DNA of 64,000 bases from Neptunitalea chrysea (GTDB taxonomy: Bacteria; Bacteroidota; Bacteroidia; Flavobacteriales; Flavobacteriaceae). Positions 22,083 to 28,972 of the stretch are shown in pieces. Each line of letters starts with the position of its first letter. Position 1 is the first letter of the stretch. The notes under the pieces were generated by a model. That model ran no database searches. It was not told where the DNA came from and was given only the letters and a program-made list of their open reading frames with translations. Where the stretch lies: NCBI RefSeq assembly GCF_027924145.1, contig NZ_BRVP01000005.1, forward strand, positions 62,001-126,000, written 5' to 3'. Position numbers and translations under genes: made by a program.

Positions 22083-22391
22083 ATGAGGGAGAAAAAAATA
22101 AAATATCTTATTCTTGGAATAGTGATGGATGGATTGGGAATGTTATCTTATGCATTTCCGTTGTTTGGTGAATTAATTGATATCGTATGGGCTCCTATTT
22201 CGAGTTTAGTAATGAATAAGATGTATAAAGGGATATCGGGTAAAGTGGCTTCTATTATATCGTTGATTGAAGAAGGCTTACCAGGATTGGATTTTATACC
22301 AACATTTACACTAATGTGGGTTTATACCTATATTATTAAATCGGAGGACGAAAATACGGGAAAGTTGATCCCAATTAGGGTACGATCTTAA
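22083..22391 (+). CDS. Small membrane protein of unknown function
   Basis: Protein of 102 residues that I associate with uncharacterised flavobacterial membrane proteins. It has two or three hydrophobic segments (about 8-30, 36-45, 74-90) and the recognisable LPGLDFIPTFTLMWVYTYII near the end. It follows msrA after 55 bases and could share its transcript. A small hairpin with a T run follows its stop. Confidence 0.7.
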   Translation: MREKKIKYLILGIVMDGLGMLSYAFPLFGELIDIVWAPISSLVMNKMYKGISGKVASIISLIEEGLPGLDFIPTFTLMWVYTYIIKSEDENTGKLIPIRVRS

Positions 22392-22416
22392 GTACTTGTT
22401 AAAAGGTGCTTTTTTT
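22390..22416 (+). terminator. Weak rho-independent terminator after the small membrane protein
   Basis: Stem AAGTAC (22390-22395) with GTGCTT (22406-22411, one G-U pair) and a following T run. It overlaps the end of the stop codon region and separates this gene from the ABC operon. Confidence 0.5.
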
Positions 22417-22451
22417 ATAGGGTTGTACTGTAAATGTATTAGTTTTACCAT

Positions 22452-23078
22452 ATGCTTACAACCCAAAATCTATCTTATACCTATGCATCAGGAACTGCAC
22501 TCAAATTTCCTGATATTAGTCTTGAAGAAGATGAAGACTTATTAATTTTGGGGGCTTCTGGTGTAGGGAAAACTACCTTATTACATTTAATGGGCGGACT
22601 TTTAAAACCTGATAGTGGTAGTATTACGCTTGCTAATCAGGGAATTCAAAAGTTAAGCCAGCGAAAAATGGATACTTTTAGAGGTGAACATATTGGTATT
22701 GTTTTTCAGAAAGCCATATTTATTCAATCGTTATCTGTTATTGATAATATAAAGGCTAAATTATTTTTTACAGAGACTACCTTATCTACTGAAGATATAA
22801 CCTCTTTATTAACCACTTTAAATCTTGTTGATAAAAAAGATAGCTTGGTTCAAAAACTAAGTGAAGGTCAAAAGCAACGACTGTCTATAGCTATAGCATT
22901 AAGCAATAAACCAAAACTAATTTTGGCAGATGAGCCAACGGCTAGCCTCGATGATTTAAACGCTAAAAATGTAATAACCTTACTATTGTCTGAAGCTCGT
23001 AAACAAAAAGCGAATTTGGTGGTAATTACACATGATCATAGAATTAAAGAATATTTTAGTAAAACTATAGAACTATGA
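22452..23078 (+). CDS. ABC transporter ATP-binding protein of the putative metal island
   Basis: ATPase of 208 residues with Walker A GASGVGKTTLL (about 35-45), Q-loop IVFQKAIFIQSL, a variant signature LSEGQKQRLS (Glu in place of the second Gly), Walker B LILADEPTASLD and switch ITHDHR. It belongs to the LolD/MacB-like group. The stop overlaps the start of the FtsX-type permease by 4 bases, so the two are made together as one transporter. Its position opposite the TonB receptor operon suggests a joint role in metal handling. Confidence 0.92.
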   Translation: MLTTQNLSYTYASGTALKFPDISLEEDEDLLILGASGVGKTTLLHLMGGLLKPDSGSITLANQGIQKLSQRKMDTFRGEHIGIVFQKAIFIQSLSVIDNIKAKLFFTETTLSTEDITSLLTTLNLVDKKDSLVQKLSEGQKQRLSIAIALSNKPKLILADEPTASLDDLNAKNVITLLLSEARKQKANLVVITHDHRIKEYFSKTIEL

Positions 23079-24256
23079 GTCTTTGGAGGTTAGCAATTAA
23101 GAATATGCTGTTTAAACCCCTTAATACTTTTTTAAGTATATTACTATTGGCTCTTAGTGTAGCTTTAATAAGCGGCTCGTTCCATTTAAAAAAGCTTTAT
23201 GAGAATCAGATAACGGCCAATATTTTAGATATTGATATGGTAATAGGAGCCAAGGGTAGCCCGTTACAATTAGTTTTGTCTTCTGTGTTACATATAGATG
23301 CTCCTACAGGAAATATTAATTATGATAAAGCGAAGCAACTTACACGTAATGTTTATATAAAGAGTGCTGTTCCTATTTCTTATGGAGATAATTATAAGGG
23401 ATACAGAATTATTGGTAGTACTCCAGAATTTTTAAAAGTGTATCATGCTAGCATACTTGAAGGACAATTATTTTCGAAAGTTAAAGAACTTGTGGTAGGC
23501 TATGAATTAGCCAGACAATTACACCTAAAAATTGGGGATAAAATTACTAGTTCTCATGGATTGACAGAGGGGATTGAAGAACATGACGATAAATTAATTA
23601 TTACTGGAATATTAAAGCCAACAGGTACTATTATAGATCAATTATTAATAACGCCTTTGGAGACTGTTTGGCATGTACACGAGCATAAAGGAGAGGAGCT
23701 TGAAGCGCATGAAAAAGAAATTACTGCAATGTTGGTGTCTTTTAAAAACCCAATGGCAATGTTACAAATGCCCAGAAGAGTAAATGCAGTCCCCGGAATG
23801 CAAGCAGCTTTGCCTAAGTTTGAACTAGATAGGCTTTATGGTTTAATGGGAGTTGGTTTCAAGGCAATTTCTATGATAGGGTTAGCTATTTTATTGGTAT
23901 CTGGTCTAAGTATATTTATAAGTTTGTATAGAGTAATTAAAGAACGTAAGTATGAAATAGCTTTAATGAGAACGTATGGAGCTAGTAGATTACAATTGTT
24001 CATAATTGTATTAATAGAGGGGTTTTTGGTTGGTGTTATAGGGGTTCTAGGTGGTTTTATACTTAGTAAATTGGCATTAAATGTTTTGAAAAACTATATA
24101 GAAACAGGGTATAAACTTAACGTTAAAGTATTGTTTTTACTTCCTGAGGAAGGATACGTTATCTTGGGCGTATTTGGTACTATAATACTGGCTACGTTAT
24201 TGGCTGTTATACCAATTTTTAAAATGAATGTATCAAAAGTATTAGCAGATGAATAG
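23075..24256 (+). CDS. FtsX/MacB-type ABC transporter permease
   Basis: Permease of 393 residues with one membrane segment near the N-terminus (about 15-33), a periplasmic domain of about 220 residues rich in His and acidic residues (HVHEHKGEELEAHEKE at about 211-226), and three C-terminal membrane segments (about 257-285, 306-332, 360-382). This is the MacB/LolC fold, which moves substrates within the periplasm rather than across the inner membrane. The His/Glu-rich stretch could bind metal; that is inference. It overlaps the ATPase gene by 4 bases and the next gene by 8. Confidence 0.9.
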   Translation: MSLWRLAIKNMLFKPLNTFLSILLLALSVALISGSFHLKKLYENQITANILDIDMVIGAKGSPLQLVLSSVLHIDAPTGNINYDKAKQLTRNVYIKSAVPISYGDNYKGYRIIGSTPEFLKVYHASILEGQLFSKVKELVVGYELARQLHLKIGDKITSSHGLTEGIEEHDDKLIITGILKPTGTIIDQLLITPLETVWHVHEHKGEELEAHEKEITAMLVSFKNPMAMLQMPRRVNAVPGMQAALPKFELDRLYGLMGVGFKAISMIGLAILLVSGLSIFISLYRVIKERKYEIALMRTYGASRLQLFIIVLIEGFLVGVIGVLGGFILSKLALNVLKNYIETGYKLNVKVLFLLPEEGYVILGVFGTIILATLLAVIPIFKMNVSKVLADE

Positions 24257-24689
24257 TAAGTTATTAGTATTACTTTTTTTTGGAGTTTTCATTGGGGCTT
24301 ATGCGCAACAAGAGATTACTTGGAAAGATTTAGCAAATGTTAAATTCTCAACCAAATATGTAGAAAGTGAAGATGGAGATGTTTTGATTCCGGTTTTTGG
24401 AGATGCCATTAAAAAAATTGAAGGTAAAGAAATTAGTGTAACCGGCTATTTTCTAAATCTAGATGCTAGTACAAAATCCTTTATGCTTTCTAAAAGTCCT
24501 ATGTCTGCGTGTTTTTTTTGTGGAGCCGGTGGTCCTGAAACAGTAATAGAAATTCATTTTGCTAAAAAAGAGGAACAATATAAAACAGATAAAATAATTA
24601 CAATTACAGGAGTTCTGAAGTTAAATCAAACAGATATTAATCATTGTAATTATATTTTAGAAAAGGCGAGGGGTACATCCTTTGATTAA
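24249..24689 (+). CDS. Periplasmic DUF3299-like protein
   Basis: Protein of 146 residues with a cleavable signal peptide ending AYAQ (about 1-19). The mature part is an OB-like small domain with GKEISVTGYFLNL and a CxxC motif in SACFFCGAGGPETVIEI (about 88-104). This pattern matches DUF3299-like proteins, which I recall next to FtsX-type ABC genes in zinc-regulated clusters of proteobacteria. The CxxC could bind metal or be redox-active. It is the last gene of the ABC operon and starts inside the permease gene. Confidence 0.78.
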   Translation: MNSKLLVLLFFGVFIGAYAQQEITWKDLANVKFSTKYVESEDGDVLIPVFGDAIKKIEGKEISVTGYFLNLDASTKSFMLSKSPMSACFFCGAGGPETVIEIHFAKKEEQYKTDKIITITGVLKLNQTDINHCNYILEKARGTSFD

Positions 24690-24694
24690 TATAT

Positions 24695-24734
24695 AATAAG
24701 TATAGCCTTTTTAAAGGCTATACTTATTTATTTT
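24695..24734. terminator. Bidirectional terminator between the convergent metal operons
   Basis: Long perfect stem: arms 24695-24710 and 24713-24728 (core GTATAGCC/GGCTATAC), with T-rich sequence on the plus-strand side. It serves the ABC operon and probably also the converging lipoprotein gene. Confidence 0.9.
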
Positions 24735-24759
24735 TTGGGTATGGACTATTGTAAAATTA

Positions 24760-25323
24760 CTACTCTACGGTAATAGCGTAGGTAGCTGTGAAATCAGTTT
24801 CACCACCGGCATTGGTAATATCACCATCACTAACACCAGACGCATCTTTATCTGGTTGGTGAATTAATGTAATAGTTAATGAAGCAGTACCGGCACTTCC
24901 TGTTACTAATGAAAAATCTATTCCAAGAGGTTTTCCATCGTCATCGGTATCGCTATAACTAGTTGAAGCAATAGCGCTTCCTCCTGTAATAAAAAAGAAT
25001 TGGTGATCTGTATTTTCGTCAGCAACTTCTTCTGTTACATCTTCAGCCGGACTTTCAGTTTCATTTAATAGTTCTATTACTCCGCTGTAAGTTGTATTTG
25101 CAGCTAAGTTTCCTGAAACAGTTAGTACAGGATCATTTGGTCCATCACCATCTAAATCCTGAGATTGTAAAGTAATTACTTGTGAACCATTAGTTAGTGT
25201 TACATTCATAGTGGTAATCACTTCTTCTTCGTTGATTACTTCAGGGGTGTCGTCATCACTTGAACAACTCATGAATGAAAAGGATACAAGTAGTGCTATA
25301 AAAGGATATTTTAAAATTTTCAT
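24760..25323 (-). CDS. Acidic outer-membrane lipoprotein linked to the TonB receptor
   Basis: Lipoprotein of 187 residues. The signal peptide ends in the lipobox FMSC with Cys20, followed by an acidic SSDDDTPE tether typical of surface-exported lipoproteins in Bacteroidota. The mature domain is beta-rich and acidic, with DLDGDGPNDP, ENTDHQFFF, SDTDDDGKPLG and LIHQPDKDASG. Similar proteins are labelled type 1 periplasmic binding fold, a name the sequence does not prove. It lies 21 bases downstream of the TonB receptor gene, so it is a likely substrate-capturing partner. The Asp-rich loops could bind Ca or Zn ions. Confidence 0.8.
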   Translation of the reverse strand: MKILKYPFIALLVSFSFMSCSSDDDTPEVINEEEVITTMNVTLTNGSQVITLQSQDLDGDGPNDPVLTVSGNLAANTTYSGVIELLNETESPAEDVTEEVADENTDHQFFFITGGSAIASTSYSDTDDDGKPLGIDFSLVTGSAGTASLTITLIHQPDKDASGVSDGDITNAGGETDFTATYAITVE

Positions 25324-25344
25324 AATATTTATAATTAATATGTA

Positions 25345-27756
25345 TTAGTATGTAAATGTTAATTGAACTTTGAAATTTCTGCCCAAATCATCTGCATAAT
25401 AGCGTTGTCTGTTCAGATAATCTCTGTAACGTGTATTAAGCAGATTTTGAATACTAAACCCAACTGTAAGATCTGATTTTTTGAACCAGTTAAAGGTACA
25501 CTGTGTATTAAAGTGTAAAAGTCCATACCCTTTAGGAGGTTCACTAAGAGCTACAGTTTTGGTAATAGTTCCATTAGTAGTGGTCGTGTATGAAATATCA
25601 AAGTCGTTATTTGGAAACCTGGTTTGTTTAAAAACGGTTTCATATTTTAAGCCTGCCTCAAATGAATTCCAGTCAGAACGTGTAAATAAGATACTGTTTG
25701 TCCAATTTGTTGCCGGAATATCAATTATCGGCCGATCATTCTCTGTGTCTTGTGCATATATATATGCGGCTTTCGATGAAAAGCTTAGATTAGGTACAAT
25801 TGTATAATCTAATGAAGCATCAATTCCTGTAAATAAGGCATTAATTTGGCTGTATTCCCAAACAGGGAACGCCCCCCTTGTGGTTTGTTCGATACCTGTA
25901 GGTTGTAGCACTATAAAATCTTTAATAAGATTTATATAAGGGTTGATGTCAAATGATATATTATTTGATTGTTTTGAATAATTTAAGCTTAGCTTTTTAG
26001 AAACCTCTTGTTTCATGCGTAAGTCACCTAATTCTATAATGGCAGCCGAGTGATGTAAACCATCACTAAATAGTTCTGAAGCATTAGGTGAACGACTGGC
26101 TAAACTTACGTTAACTAGTAGATTGTTATTGTTTTTTAAAACAGTTTTTAAACCTATTGTTCCAGATATGTTATGGAAATTAAATATAGGATTTGTTAAC
26201 AATTGGGTATCGTACTCATCTACAATAATATCAGCAAATTCTTCATCGTACCCACGTTCTACCCATCTCGATGTTATATAGTATTTTTTAGCATCTATAT
26301 GATTGAAATCATATCGGGCTCCAATATCTAAAATGGTATTTTCAGATAATTGATGATCTAAACTACCAAACACACCCAAATTGAGTTGTTCATAATCAGG
26401 TATTAGTCTTCTTACACCCGTTTCAGGGTTAGGCGTATTTTTTTGATAATTACCCGAAATACCTATAGAAAACTTGTTTGATTGTACTGCGTCAAAATCA
26501 AAAACAGTAGAAAGGGAATGGGTATTTAAAACCATATCCATAGATGGTTTGTCTTTGTCGTCCCCACGTCTTATATCATATTCTTTACGATTGTTTTTCT
26601 GAAAATCGTATTGAAAACTAAGTTTTCCCAACTCTGAAAATCTTCTATAAAAATCAAATTTAGCTAAGTGATGCGTTACATCCTGGTATGGAGCATTAAT
26701 GTTATAAGTAAAATCATTAATAACAGTAGGGGTGTTGCTTTCTAGTGCTTTAACTAAATCACTAACACTACCAATATGCGAGGCTCTTAAAATACCAATT
26801 TGTGTATTGTAATAACTATAATAGGTGTTAAAACCATATTCTAGTTTACGCAATCCGCCACCAATTGAAAAATCTTTTTCTCTAGATCCGGTATTTGATA
26901 ATATATAATCAGGAGCTTCATAGTCACCAAGGTATTTAAAAGTACCTTGCCCTTTTGCATACCAACCACTTTTCTTTGTACTAATAATAGAAGAAGTAAT
27001 ACTTCCGCCACGACCATTACTTACACCGGTTAAAACAGTTTTGCCATATATAGAATCTGCTTTTAGAGGTTGTGTACCATCAATTACAATAGTGCCTCCT
27101 ACAGCATCTCCACCATATCTTAACGCCGAAGCACCTTTAACTACCGTAATACTACTGGCAGTATTAATATCAACGTTAGGAGCATGTTCTACACCCCATT
27201 CTTGGTCTTGCATGCGTACACCATTATTAATAATTAGTACACGACTGCTATGCATACCATTTACAACCGGTTTTACTATAGATCCACCTGTGTTAAGAGA
27301 TGAAATACCACTTATTTCTTTTAAGGCATCACCAATACTACCATTGCTATATTGTTGAATAACCTTTTCTGAAATAGTAGACTCTGCTCCAGAGTTTGTA
27401 GTGCTTTTTAAATGGTTGTCGGTAACTATAACTTCTCCAATTTCTTCAAGGTGATGTTCCAGTTTAATATTTTCTGTAGTATCTCCTTGTATTGCAATAG
27501 TTTTTAAGATACTATCACATTCTGGATGCGAAATTTGTAATTCAATGGTACCTTCACATAAATTTTCGATTTTGAAATTTCCATCAAAATCTGAGTATAC
27601 TTCAACATCAGTTCCAATTATTTGTATAAGAGCTCCAAAAAGTGGAGACCCATCATGATAATCAGTTATTTTTCCTTTAAATGTATAGGAACATTTCTGA
27701 GCTGAAGCAATCATCGAAATTACCACAAAAATTATGGTAACAAATAATTTTTTCAT
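25345..27756 (-). CDS. TonB-dependent outer membrane receptor, ZnuD-like
   Basis: Receptor of 803 residues. A signal peptide MKKLFVTIIFVVISMIASAQ is followed by a carboxypeptidase-regulatory-like domain (about 20-105), a plug (about 120-225, with EIGEVIVTDN and ALRYGGDAVGGTIVIDG) and a 22-strand-type barrel ending LTFTY. The segment SRSPNASELFSDGLHHSAAIIELGD, written here only by its core ELFSDGLHHS, matches the part of ZnuD-type zinc receptors where a His-containing loop occurs. Zinc is therefore the best guess; copper is possible. A longer frame from 27798 would hide the signal peptide, so ATG 27756 is chosen. It lies between a small His/Cys protein and the lipoprotein. Confidence 0.9.
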   Translation of the reverse strand: MKKLFVTIIFVVISMIASAQKCSYTFKGKITDYHDGSPLFGALIQIIGTDVEVYSDFDGNFKIENLCEGTIELQISHPECDSILKTIAIQGDTTENIKLEHHLEEIGEVIVTDNHLKSTTNSGAESTISEKVIQQYSNGSIGDALKEISGISSLNTGGSIVKPVVNGMHSSRVLIINNGVRMQDQEWGVEHAPNVDINTASSITVVKGASALRYGGDAVGGTIVIDGTQPLKADSIYGKTVLTGVSNGRGGSITSSIISTKKSGWYAKGQGTFKYLGDYEAPDYILSNTGSREKDFSIGGGLRKLEYGFNTYYSYYNTQIGILRASHIGSVSDLVKALESNTPTVINDFTYNINAPYQDVTHHLAKFDFYRRFSELGKLSFQYDFQKNNRKEYDIRRGDDKDKPSMDMVLNTHSLSTVFDFDAVQSNKFSIGISGNYQKNTPNPETGVRRLIPDYEQLNLGVFGSLDHQLSENTILDIGARYDFNHIDAKKYYITSRWVERGYDEEFADIIVDEYDTQLLTNPIFNFHNISGTIGLKTVLKNNNNLLVNVSLASRSPNASELFSDGLHHSAAIIELGDLRMKQEVSKKLSLNYSKQSNNISFDINPYINLIKDFIVLQPTGIEQTTRGAFPVWEYSQINALFTGIDASLDYTIVPNLSFSSKAAYIYAQDTENDRPIIDIPATNWTNSILFTRSDWNSFEAGLKYETVFKQTRFPNNDFDISYTTTTNGTITKTVALSEPPKGYGLLHFNTQCTFNWFKKSDLTVGFSIQNLLNTRYRDYLNRQRYYADDLGRNFKVQLTFTY

Positions 27757-27769
27757 ATTAAAAATATAA

Positions 27770-27819
27770 GTTAAGACAGATGATGACTGAGTAGTCATTG
27801 TTAAAAACGATCTGTTAAC
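27770..27819. promoter_or_regulatory. Nested inverted repeats before the TonB receptor gene
   Basis: An inner perfect inverted repeat ATGACT-GAGT-AGTCAT (27783-27798) sits inside an outer imperfect pair, GTTAAGACAGAT (27770-27781) and ATCTGTTAAC (27810-27819). It occupies the 58-base gap between the small protein stop and the receptor ATG. It could be an intercistronic RNA hairpin or a repressor operator. Confidence 0.4.
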
Positions 27820-28123
27820 TTAAAAAAGGAGGAGGCTTGTTGTATAGTGTAAGCGAGTGTAATTTGTTAAAATAAACTGGCACGTACGTTTCCAAATAAT
27901 TATTTGGTAGTTGTACCTGAGGTAGAAATTCGAAACTAAAACTTTCTGCACTTAAAACAGGAGTTACATCTTGCGTTAGTGTAAACTTACAAACATCGCA
28001 ATGCTCTATTTTAGATTTCTCATTCTCTAGAATATGAAAAAAGGCATGTAGGTTCGATAATTTAATCGAAATAAATACGATTAAAAAAAAGTAAACGATG
28101 CTATGTTTTAGTCCTTGTTTCAT
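27815..28123 (-). CDS. Small exported His/Cys protein heading the TonB receptor operon
   Basis: Protein of 102 residues with an N-terminal hydrophobic signal (about 8-24) followed at once by LHAFFHILENEKSKIEHCDV and a CDVC motif (about 25-47). The rest is hydrophobic and proline-rich, ending NKPPPFLS. The cluster of two His, then His-Cys-x-x-Cys, resembles a metal-binding site of DUF2946-like small proteins found beside metal receptors. It is the first gene of the minus-strand operon, with a TAAGTTTG promoter core 10 bases before its ATG. Confidence 0.7.
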   Translation of the reverse strand: MKQGLKHSIVYFFLIVFISIKLSNLHAFFHILENEKSKIEHCDVCKFTLTQDVTPVLSAESFSFEFLPQVQLPNNYLETYVPVYFNKLHSLTLYNKPPPFLS

Positions 28124-28133
28124 AAATTCGGTA

Positions 28134-28141
28134 CAAACTTA
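28134..28141 (-). promoter_or_regulatory. Promoter -7 element of the TonB receptor operon
   Basis: TAAGTTTG on the minus strand matches TAnnTTTG and lies 10 bases before the ATG of the small His/Cys protein. No standard -33 motif is visible, which would fit an activator-dependent or repressed promoter. Confidence 0.45.
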
Positions 28142-28182: not shown

Positions 28183-28503
28183 TTAATTTTTCTTTAGTGA
28201 AGAAAATCCTATTCTTGATAACATCTTTTTTTCAAAATTCCAGAAAAATTTAAACTGCCCAAATACAGTACCTACAAATAATAGTAAAGGGAAGTAAATA
28301 GGTAATATTGCAATGATTTCTATAATAAAATAAACGATACCCCAATACCATTCTACCCCTAAAATATTTCTGGTAAACCCAATAGAGCTAAAAATAGGCC
28401 TAATAATATATGCAGAAGTAGAACCGGTAATAGCAAATACAATTAAAATTAAAGTAAATTGAAGATTAGATTTAACGTTCCAGCGTTCTTTTAAGCTTCC
28501 CAT
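28183..28503 (-). CDS. DUF6787-like small membrane protein
   Basis: Protein of 106 residues with two membrane segments (about 13-35 and 51-80). The flavobacterial family features visible are LKERWNV, TLILIVFAITGSTSAYIIRP and the acidic/aromatic GVEWYWGIVYFIIE. The family has no known function; an older database label (diacylglyceryl transferase) has no support in the sequence. It starts 10 bases after the DUF6146 lipoprotein stop, so the two are cotranscribed. Confidence 0.75.
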   Translation of the reverse strand: MGSLKERWNVKSNLQFTLILIVFAITGSTSAYIIRPIFSSIGFTRNILGVEWYWGIVYFIIEIIAILPIYFPLLLFVGTVFGQFKFFWNFEKKMLSRIGFSSLKKN

Positions 28504-28513
28504 AGGCGATACG

Positions 28514-28972
28514 TCAAATTCTAGGAATGAGTCCGGTTAATCGTTGATTATATTTTCTCTGAAAATAAATAAAGTAATTATACATTTGATAATTAACTTC
28601 ATATCCGTAGTCTATATTAGGTGTATAATTTATTTGTAATTCGTATAAATTAGGATTGTAACGCTGAGGCATTGTAACTCTTCTGTTCCATTCATTAACA
28701 AACAATATATTTCTGTTTTCTAAGAATGTTTGCGAATAAAATCCTCTTGGTCTAGCCATAGACTGAAGCCAAGCATAAAAGCCTGGTTCAATAATAATTA
28801 CTTCATATTCTAATGAGTCATTAGCAATAGTAATGGTATCACTTTCTTTACTATTAAAAATTTCAGTTTCTGTATCTGAAACCGTAGGAGTTTGAGGTTT
28901 ACATGAAACAAAAATAATGAACAGTAAAAGTGCGATGCCTAAAATATGATATGTAAAACGTTTTAAAACCAT
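28514..28972 (-). CDS. DUF6146-like lipoprotein
   Basis: Lipoprotein of 152 residues. The signal peptide ends FVSC with the lipid-accepting Cys at about residue 24. After a Thr/Ser/Glu-rich tether, the domain has YEVIIIEPGFYAWLQSMARP and the C-terminal NYTPNIDYGYEVNYQMYNYF. I associate this with the DUF6146 family of Bacteroidota, function unknown. It precedes the DUF6787-like gene by 10 bases. Confidence 0.78.
   Translation of the reverse strand: MVLKRFTYHILGIALLLFIIFVSCKPQTPTVSDTETEIFNSKESDTITIANDSLEYEVIIIEPGFYAWLQSMARPRGFYSQTFLENRNILFVNEWNRRVTMPQRYNPNLYELQINYTPNIDYGYEVNYQMYNYFIYFQRKYNQRLTGLIPRI

Follow-up and report, generated by a model that had tools for sequence, protein, structure and literature searches.

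A 64,000-nucleotide stretch of the Neptunitalea chrysea genome (contig NZ_BRVP01000005.1, positions 62,001 to 126,000; referred to here as the window) carries two convergent gene sets. The minus strand encodes a small exported leader protein (F), a TonB-dependent outer-membrane receptor (E) and a lipoprotein (D), and the plus strand an ATP-binding cassette (ABC) ATPase (A), an FtsX/MacB-type permease (B) and an exported protein with a CxxC motif (C). We propose that these are two independent units, that F-E-D is a metal-uptake operon under the post-transcriptional control of a leader switch, and that A-B-C is separate from it (probability roughly 0.7). More tentatively, at a little under even odds, we suggest that Flavobacteriaceae possess a widespread outer-membrane receptor for a metal, probably copper, and control it through an arrest peptide that is gated by the metal. 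A stalled ribosome would open a stem formed by the stop codon of the leader and the Shine-Dalgarno-free start of the receptor gene, and this switch would take the place of a metalloregulator and its promoter site. An initial annotation of the window had instead joined the six genes into one zinc acquisition system.

The leader protein provided the first line of evidence. In an alignment of 40 sequences F is variable (26% mean column identity), save for one histidine, one cysteine and a C-terminal proline pair. An [RK]xPP motif ends 101 of 103 distinct homologues, most often as RGPP (57), RAPP (26) or RPPP (14) and as KPPP in the window, and precisely three residues follow it in 65 of the 103. 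Locus L137 was excluded from this set (wrong open reading frame, ORF), and the contig of L150 bears no F. A PP filter had been used to select 72 of the 112 F sequences present before de-duplication; in the 40 selected without it, P98 is found in 40 and P99 in 39. Among 625 ORFs of 75-150 amino acids from 137 loci, the 120 with the motif in their last 14 residues are all of the F type. F stands directly before E, on the same strand, in nearly all loci. The order is F-D-E in loci L173 and L214, and in Poritiphilus flavus (L186) F is followed by D, with no E detected. F-type leaders ending in RGPP, RPPP or KPPP also precede ABC-2 type ATPase/permease units (L023, L107, L140, L186, L211). Judged from its sequence, F is built like the copper-responsive nascent-chain regulators CruR and CutF, with a Cys/His motif followed by a C-terminal [R/K]xPP.

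The junction between F and E displayed a second conserved element. The last codons and stop codon of F pair with the sequence immediately upstream of the E start; in the window, with the leader folded up to that start, the pairing probability is 0.84-1.0 at seven of the eight pairs. Folding z-scores relative to shuffled sequences averaged -2.05 at 102 F|E junctions, compared with +1.27 at E|D and -0.13 at the F start. The arms of each locus also fit each other: their mean duplex energy was -7.58 kcal/mol, against -4.05 kcal/mol when arms were permuted between loci, and 0 of 5000 permutations reached the mean of the matched arms (one of the 102 junctions was removed from this test by a gap filter). 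With one locus per cluster (60 loci) the mean energies were -6.57 and -3.99 kcal/mol, again with 0 of 5000 permutations, and 295 other same-strand junctions used as a control gave no signal (-4.05 versus -4.07 kcal/mol). Perfect stems of at least 9 pairs occur in 37% of loci and in 7% of dissimilar swaps; 65 distinct sequences make up the stems of at least 7 pairs, which indicates that the two arms covary. Motif, gene order and stem are all conserved. The stems are rich in A+T, and of the 72 loci with at least 7 pairs, 56 have a stem ending 4-13 nucleotides before the E start. Flavobacteria are reported to start translation without Shine-Dalgarno pairing and to prefer unstructured starts (PMC9976891), hence a stem at the start of E should matter.

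Based on these findings, we postulate a switch in which F, once translated, would be exported and serve briefly as a sensor. With its Cys/His motif empty, the ribosome would stall at the C-terminal [R/K]xPP and cover the 5' arm of the stem, leaving the start of E open, so that E and then D would be made. Once nascent F bound metal, the stall would be relieved and F completed; the stem would then close, covering the region where translation of E begins, and uptake would stop. E would carry the metal, or a metal chelate, across the outer membrane, with the surface lipoprotein D as its partner. We infer the stalling, the release by metal, the identity of the metal and the sign of the response, which would match that of CruR and be the reverse of that of CutF; switching off by metal would suit an uptake receptor.

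Two other explanations of the same elements were weighed. Like CruR, which works via Rho-dependent termination between leader and receptor, the stem could act on transcription, as an attenuator or terminator, and not on translation; A+T-rich stems that end this close to the E start fit a start-codon lock better, and we consider an attenuator unlikely. Alternatively, F could act in trans as a periplasmic metal chaperone, the stem being an ordinary translational coupling or RNA-processing element. This would account for the Cys/His ligands, the export signal-like N-terminus and the translation of F directly before E. Yet conservation restricted to single ligands and the xPP end is the reverse of what a folded chaperone would display, and the E|D junctions of the same operons show no such structure, which makes this explanation decidedly unlikely.

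The proposed leader switch has parallels in described systems. In the CruR-CrtA(BfrG)-bp2921 operon of Bordetella pertussis (PMC9426467, PMC12914433), a small exported CxxC protein with a C-terminal RxPP is likewise the first gene before a TonB-dependent transporter. CruR carries RAPP three residues from its end and controls the transporter in response to copper (PMC9426467). F differs from CruR in falling outside Pfam DUF2946, and its operon has a lipoprotein as third gene where that of CruR has PepSY_TM. Moreover, the F|E junction is short and bears a covarying stem, whereas the CruR junction measures 162 bp and is Rho-dependent, and the metal of F is a putative one. Orthologues of CrtA have been placed mostly in beta- and gamma-Proteobacteria (PMC9426467, PMC12914433). 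CutF-CutO of Rhodobacter capsulatus (PMC9973294) shares with F-E an exported sensor, a metal motif, a proline-bearing C-terminus and a stem-loop that covers the start of the next gene. Copper turns CutO on, but for a receptor that takes up metal, such as E, the expected effect is off, and the F|E stem takes in the stop codon of F. RAPP/RGPP arrest peptides (ApdA, ApdP, ApcA and SecM; PMC12992588, PMC10951233) also bear their motif near the stop codon and regulate the next gene, but those characterised, CruR apart, monitor Sec/YidC export and not metal. RGPP is described as the strongest arrest motif, the arrest of CruR has been toeprinted, and a TonB-related class of leaders is reported across Gram-negatives (PMC12992588).

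CutF-like proteins of Bacteroidota and leaders before TonB genes are already listed in surveys. One survey of 5,334 CutF-like proteins includes many from Bacteroidota with TonB-type neighbours (PMC9973294), the share of this phylum being 40% after normalisation. Within the portions of the literature covered by our search, no worked-out Bacteroidota case of such a leader and no stop-codon stem were found.

The distribution of the two gene sets provided insights into their relationship. We compared 120 F-E-D loci, of which nine were removed as repeats of the D protein of another locus, leaving 111 distinct loci, and surveyed 149 genomes of the family. Of these genomes, 16 contain protein C, 64 receptor E and 61 lipoprotein D; C and E occur together in 10 (Fisher p=0.08). 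The survey of genomic neighbourhoods, which the initial annotation had suggested for the co-occurrence of the six genes, thus indicates that C and E are independent. That annotation had itself named independent distribution of the operons as the result that speaks against a joint system, and the one-system reading therefore fails. A-B(-C) adjoins D in 2 of the 111 distinct loci, plus the window itself: in Neptunitalea sp. Y10 and in the metagenome-assembled genome (MAG) IP29b_bin.102, where C is missing. When 40 F-E-D loci were mapped, the usual order was d2-d1-F-E-D opposite u2 and MsrA. A-B-C lies between D and u2 only in the window and in Neptunitalea Y10, and likewise, minus C, in one MAG, whereas genomes G094 and G086 hold A-B-C close to the u2 place and F-E-D at other sites. 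These maps suggest a shared neighbourhood without a joint system; the tree of permease B is unrooted and does not reveal whether the MsrA/u2 place is ancestral. From these gene arrangements, we conclude that the location of A-B-C beside F-E-D is incidental, with two independent units at one chromosomal place.

Meanwhile, A-B-C is associated with zinc elsewhere. At least one of a Fur-family regulator, a COG0523 GTPase, FolE, a MerC-like protein and an alkaline phosphatase lies near A-B-C or its remnant at 13 of 17 loci, and examples of these neighbours were verified by Pfam. The promoters of these zinc islands contain the box TGCAACNNNGTTGCA. With at most one mismatch in intergenic DNA it occurs at 10 of the 17 island loci, a count that is partly circular since the box was derived from the same promoters, and at 1 of the 120 F-E-D loci, a figure free of that circularity, as is the result for the window. 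There, no box was found at 22380-22451 or upstream of F, and at three mismatches the whole window gave 15 matches against 21 by chance. The Zur-type site for which the initial annotation had suggested a search near 28134 and 22420 is accordingly absent at both operons. F-E-D thus appears as a separate, conserved operon of Flavobacteriaceae that lacks the zinc-island box, and such operons would be overlooked by operator searches for this reason. One zinc acquisition island of six genes is highly improbable: the genes are adjacent in the window and in Neptunitalea Y10 and A-B-C is tied to zinc at other loci, but the operons are independently distributed, adjacency is missing elsewhere, the box is absent from the window, and the island copy of A-B-C of this very genome sits at another place.

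That second A-B-C set (G000:C21:38227 in our numbering of the 3.78 Mb genome) has two boxes beside a Fur-family gene. The island (L020 8260-13675) comprises an alkaline phosphatase, C2-B2-A2, a COG0523 GTPase and the Fur-family gene, and both of its boxes are near-palindromic. The window genome hence holds two ZrgCBE-like sets. A one-mismatch box, TGCAACACAATTGCA, was also found at L231 1501-1515 (G000:C12:90614), some 90 bp upstream of a His-rich protein which, from its sequence, we take to be a look-alike of cation diffusion facilitator (CDF) zinc transporters. No ABC-3 (ZnuB-type) permease was matched in the whole window genome by a search that was positive in 13 of 14 control genomes; zinc may therefore enter the cytoplasm by another route. 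A literature search on Zur and COG0523 in Bacteroidetes found nothing useful.

ABC proteins of the FtsX type are mechanotransmission machines. Among them, the ZrgABCDE system of Vibrio and PA4063-PA4066 of Pseudomonas (PMC9817125, PMC11481552, PMC8561739) resemble A-B-C in combining an ABC ATPase, an FtsX/MacB permease and a DUF3299-like protein in one operon, tied to Zur in relatives. ZrgCBE is strongly induced under zinc limitation (PMC9817125), and PA4064-PA4066 is reported to be a MacB-type exporter acting on pyochelin-cobalt (PMC11481552). A-B-C differs in having no separate ZrgA/PA4063 protein (no neighbouring scanned ORF matches) and a His-rich loop inside B, in a C protein below the DUF3299 cut-off, and in the missing Zur-type box of the window copy. 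In relatives of B (L021, L025, L028, L032 and others) the loop after W..H.H grows very His-rich, with up to 20 histidines in the listed 63-residue stretch of one relative and 51 in the whole B protein of L032. This loop perhaps stands in for ZrgA/PA4063. The profile of C did not reach the PA4066 structure (4hsp) in the PDB, and the identification of C with ZrgE therefore rests on gene order and the sub-threshold DUF3299 match. A structure prediction of C from two sequences was unusable (predicted local distance difference test, pLDDT, 38).

The initial assignment of the FtsX/DUF3299-like trio to a type known from zinc-regulated clusters gains support from the island loci with their Zur-like regulator and box. 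The complete metal import route once suggested does not follow for A-B-C, since FtsX-type ABC proteins mechanotransmit and an exporter function is reported for the homologue in Pseudomonas. We regard A-B-C as a putative ZrgCBE/PA4064-66-like type VII ABC system with a periplasmic partner, which in Flavobacteriaceae would normally be under a Zur-like regulator. Its probable substrate is a metal-loaded molecule or a lipoprotein, shifted within the envelope or expelled from it; zinc import is the less likely role.

That the receptor operon is concerned with metal, as first annotated, is very probably correct. ZnuD and OprC are the nearest characterised metal receptors among the solved relatives of E by profile, ZnuD being the best (7.3e-24); the second-best solved relative is structure 9gbc, a TonB-linked outer membrane receptor (E 3.4e-20). 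In contrast to both, E carries a CarbopepD domain at its N-terminus and is paired with a lipoprotein, and it scores far under the family cut-offs (93.1 versus 950 bits for the ZnuD family NF038289, and 96.9 versus 472.45 bits for the OprC/NosA-type TIGR01778). Lipoprotein D matched DUF4861 of Pfam below threshold (19.7 versus 22.3 bits), and its predicted model is Ig-like (pLDDT 89). The model had no match in the PDB at E 0.001 or better, with CopC at the non-significant ranks 18 and 22. The name 'type 1 periplasmic binding fold superfamily', which we take to apply to D, gave nothing useful in a literature search. In the D protein of G094 (L104 8044-8661), an insertion, HDHDHEGEGTHDEDDHDHEG, replaces the DLDGDG of the others, and this protein has 11 histidines compared with 2-3 in the remaining 110 distinct D proteins. 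The insertion is a hint that D may bind metal. One locus (L112 5314-14446) displayed tandem leader-receptor pairs: F'-E' and additional lipoproteins come after F-E-D, and genes of the MbnP/MbnH type flank the opposite side.

By analogy with the characterised leaders, copper is somewhat likelier than zinc as the metal of F-E-D. Neighbours of the MbnP/MbnH-type di-haem peroxidase kind were found at 6 of the 111 loci. The same leader switch could respond to zinc (or nickel/cobalt), as suggested by the rank of ZnuD, slightly above OprC, among the relatives of E, by the richness of F in histidine, and by related F'-E' receptors that are part of zinc islands and, in L026, have boxes upstream of them. 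We find this rather unlikely. The zinc-island box is absent from F-E-D save at 1 of 120 loci; a narrower box with at most three mismatches occurs in 3 of 103 F-E-D promoters, in all three just within the F start; those leaders of this build that have been characterised respond to copper; and E and E' are 25-26% identical, the zinc-island receptors with F-type leaders being a separate group. The k-mers upstream of F consisted for the most part of A-rich words, together with the coding end of d1.

Several observations weigh against a copper-responsive leader switch. The window F has no Pfam match and stays under the curated DUF2946 score, and DUF2946 is touched by 5 of the 40 aligned F sequences at E-values up to 1 (best 0.0074). 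Of the 103 F proteins, 54 contain CxxC, its first cysteine alone being invariant in the 40-sequence alignment. The distance from CxxC to the C-terminal motif is 50 in the window, versus 45 in CruR, in which an insertion of five weakened the copper response (PMC9426467); across the 54 proteins it is 43-45 in 34 and 49-52 in 20. A stem of at least 7 bp occurs in 72 of 101 F|E junctions, so not every junction is perfect. Generic same-strand junctions are themselves mildly structured (mean z -0.70 for the 200 of 295 that were folded), and 28% of them have z below -1.5, compared with 64% of F|E junctions. A strong stem is mostly missing where the leader heads another unit (F' before E' or before ABC-2 genes). 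Receptor E lies far below all NCBIfam cut-offs, for copper and zinc alike. As for copper itself, MbnP lies near E in a single genome of the family sample (G143), the family-wide count gives no strong link, and one paper states that close MbnP homologues have no copper data. DUF2946 was also tried as a bridge family: it matched weakly 17 times in 198 genomes of the phylum, two of the matches exceeding the cut-off, and it was not used.

All six ORFs described in the initial annotation are present with their coordinates and strands (Table 1), as are the features it attributed to them: the His/Glu stretch of the permease, WHVHEHKGEELEAHEKEI; the CxxC of C, as CFFCG; DGLHHS in the receptor, with H582 and H583 at 90% or more among 41 sequences; a small exported His/Cys protein, F with its HCDVC; and an acidic lipoprotein, D, whose lipobox cysteine is near-invariant. 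The label DUF3299-like for C holds insofar as a match exists, but its score of 19.1 bits falls short of the Pfam cut-off of 22. A, B and C are operon-like, as the ends of their ORFs overlap. The longest ORF of E spans 25345-27798; a start at 27756 (ATGAAAAAA) is more likely than one at 27798, the rule across loci being the last Met within the first 30 residues with K/R after it. The neighbours d1 and d2 may share a transcript with F-E-D.

Table 1 Features of the F-E-D and A-B-C region, in window positions
Feature	Position	Strand	Basis or remark
A, ABC ATPase, ZrgC/PA4064-like	22452..23078	+	ORF; Pfam ABC_tran
B, FtsX/MacB-type permease with periplasmic His/Glu loop, ZrgB/PA4065-like	23075..24256	+	Pfam MacB_PCD and FtsX
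C, exported CFFCG protein, ZrgE/PA4066-like	24249..24689	+	Sub-threshold DUF3299
D, acidic lipoprotein, putative partner of E	24760..25323	-	Ig-like model; sub-threshold DUF4861
E, TonB-dependent receptor with N-terminal CarbopepD domain	25345..27756	-	Pfam Plug, barrel, CarbopepD
F, small exported leader protein, 102 amino acids, HCDVC and C-terminal KPPPFLS	27815..28123	-	Proposed metal-sensing arrest peptide
Junction stem, 5' arm: last codons and stop of F, TAAGTTAA	27822-27815	-	Folding, duplex pairing
Junction stem, 3' arm: TTAACTTA, ends 10 nucleotides before E start	27774-27767	-	Folding, duplex pairing
d1 (DUF6787) and d2, conserved neighbours upstream of F	28183..28972	-	Each in 53/111 loci

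These findings have implications for the understanding of metal uptake in Bacteroidota, which is usually sought via operators of the Fur/Zur type. They also urge caution, as neighbouring metal genes should not be taken as one pathway. The proposed leader switch and its covarying stem make a precise and quickly testable prediction, involving one motif and two arms, and this prediction concerns ribosomes that initiate without Shine-Dalgarno pairing. The switch would provide a likely function and a likely regulator for a receptor-lipoprotein pair present in about 40% of the sampled genomes of the family.

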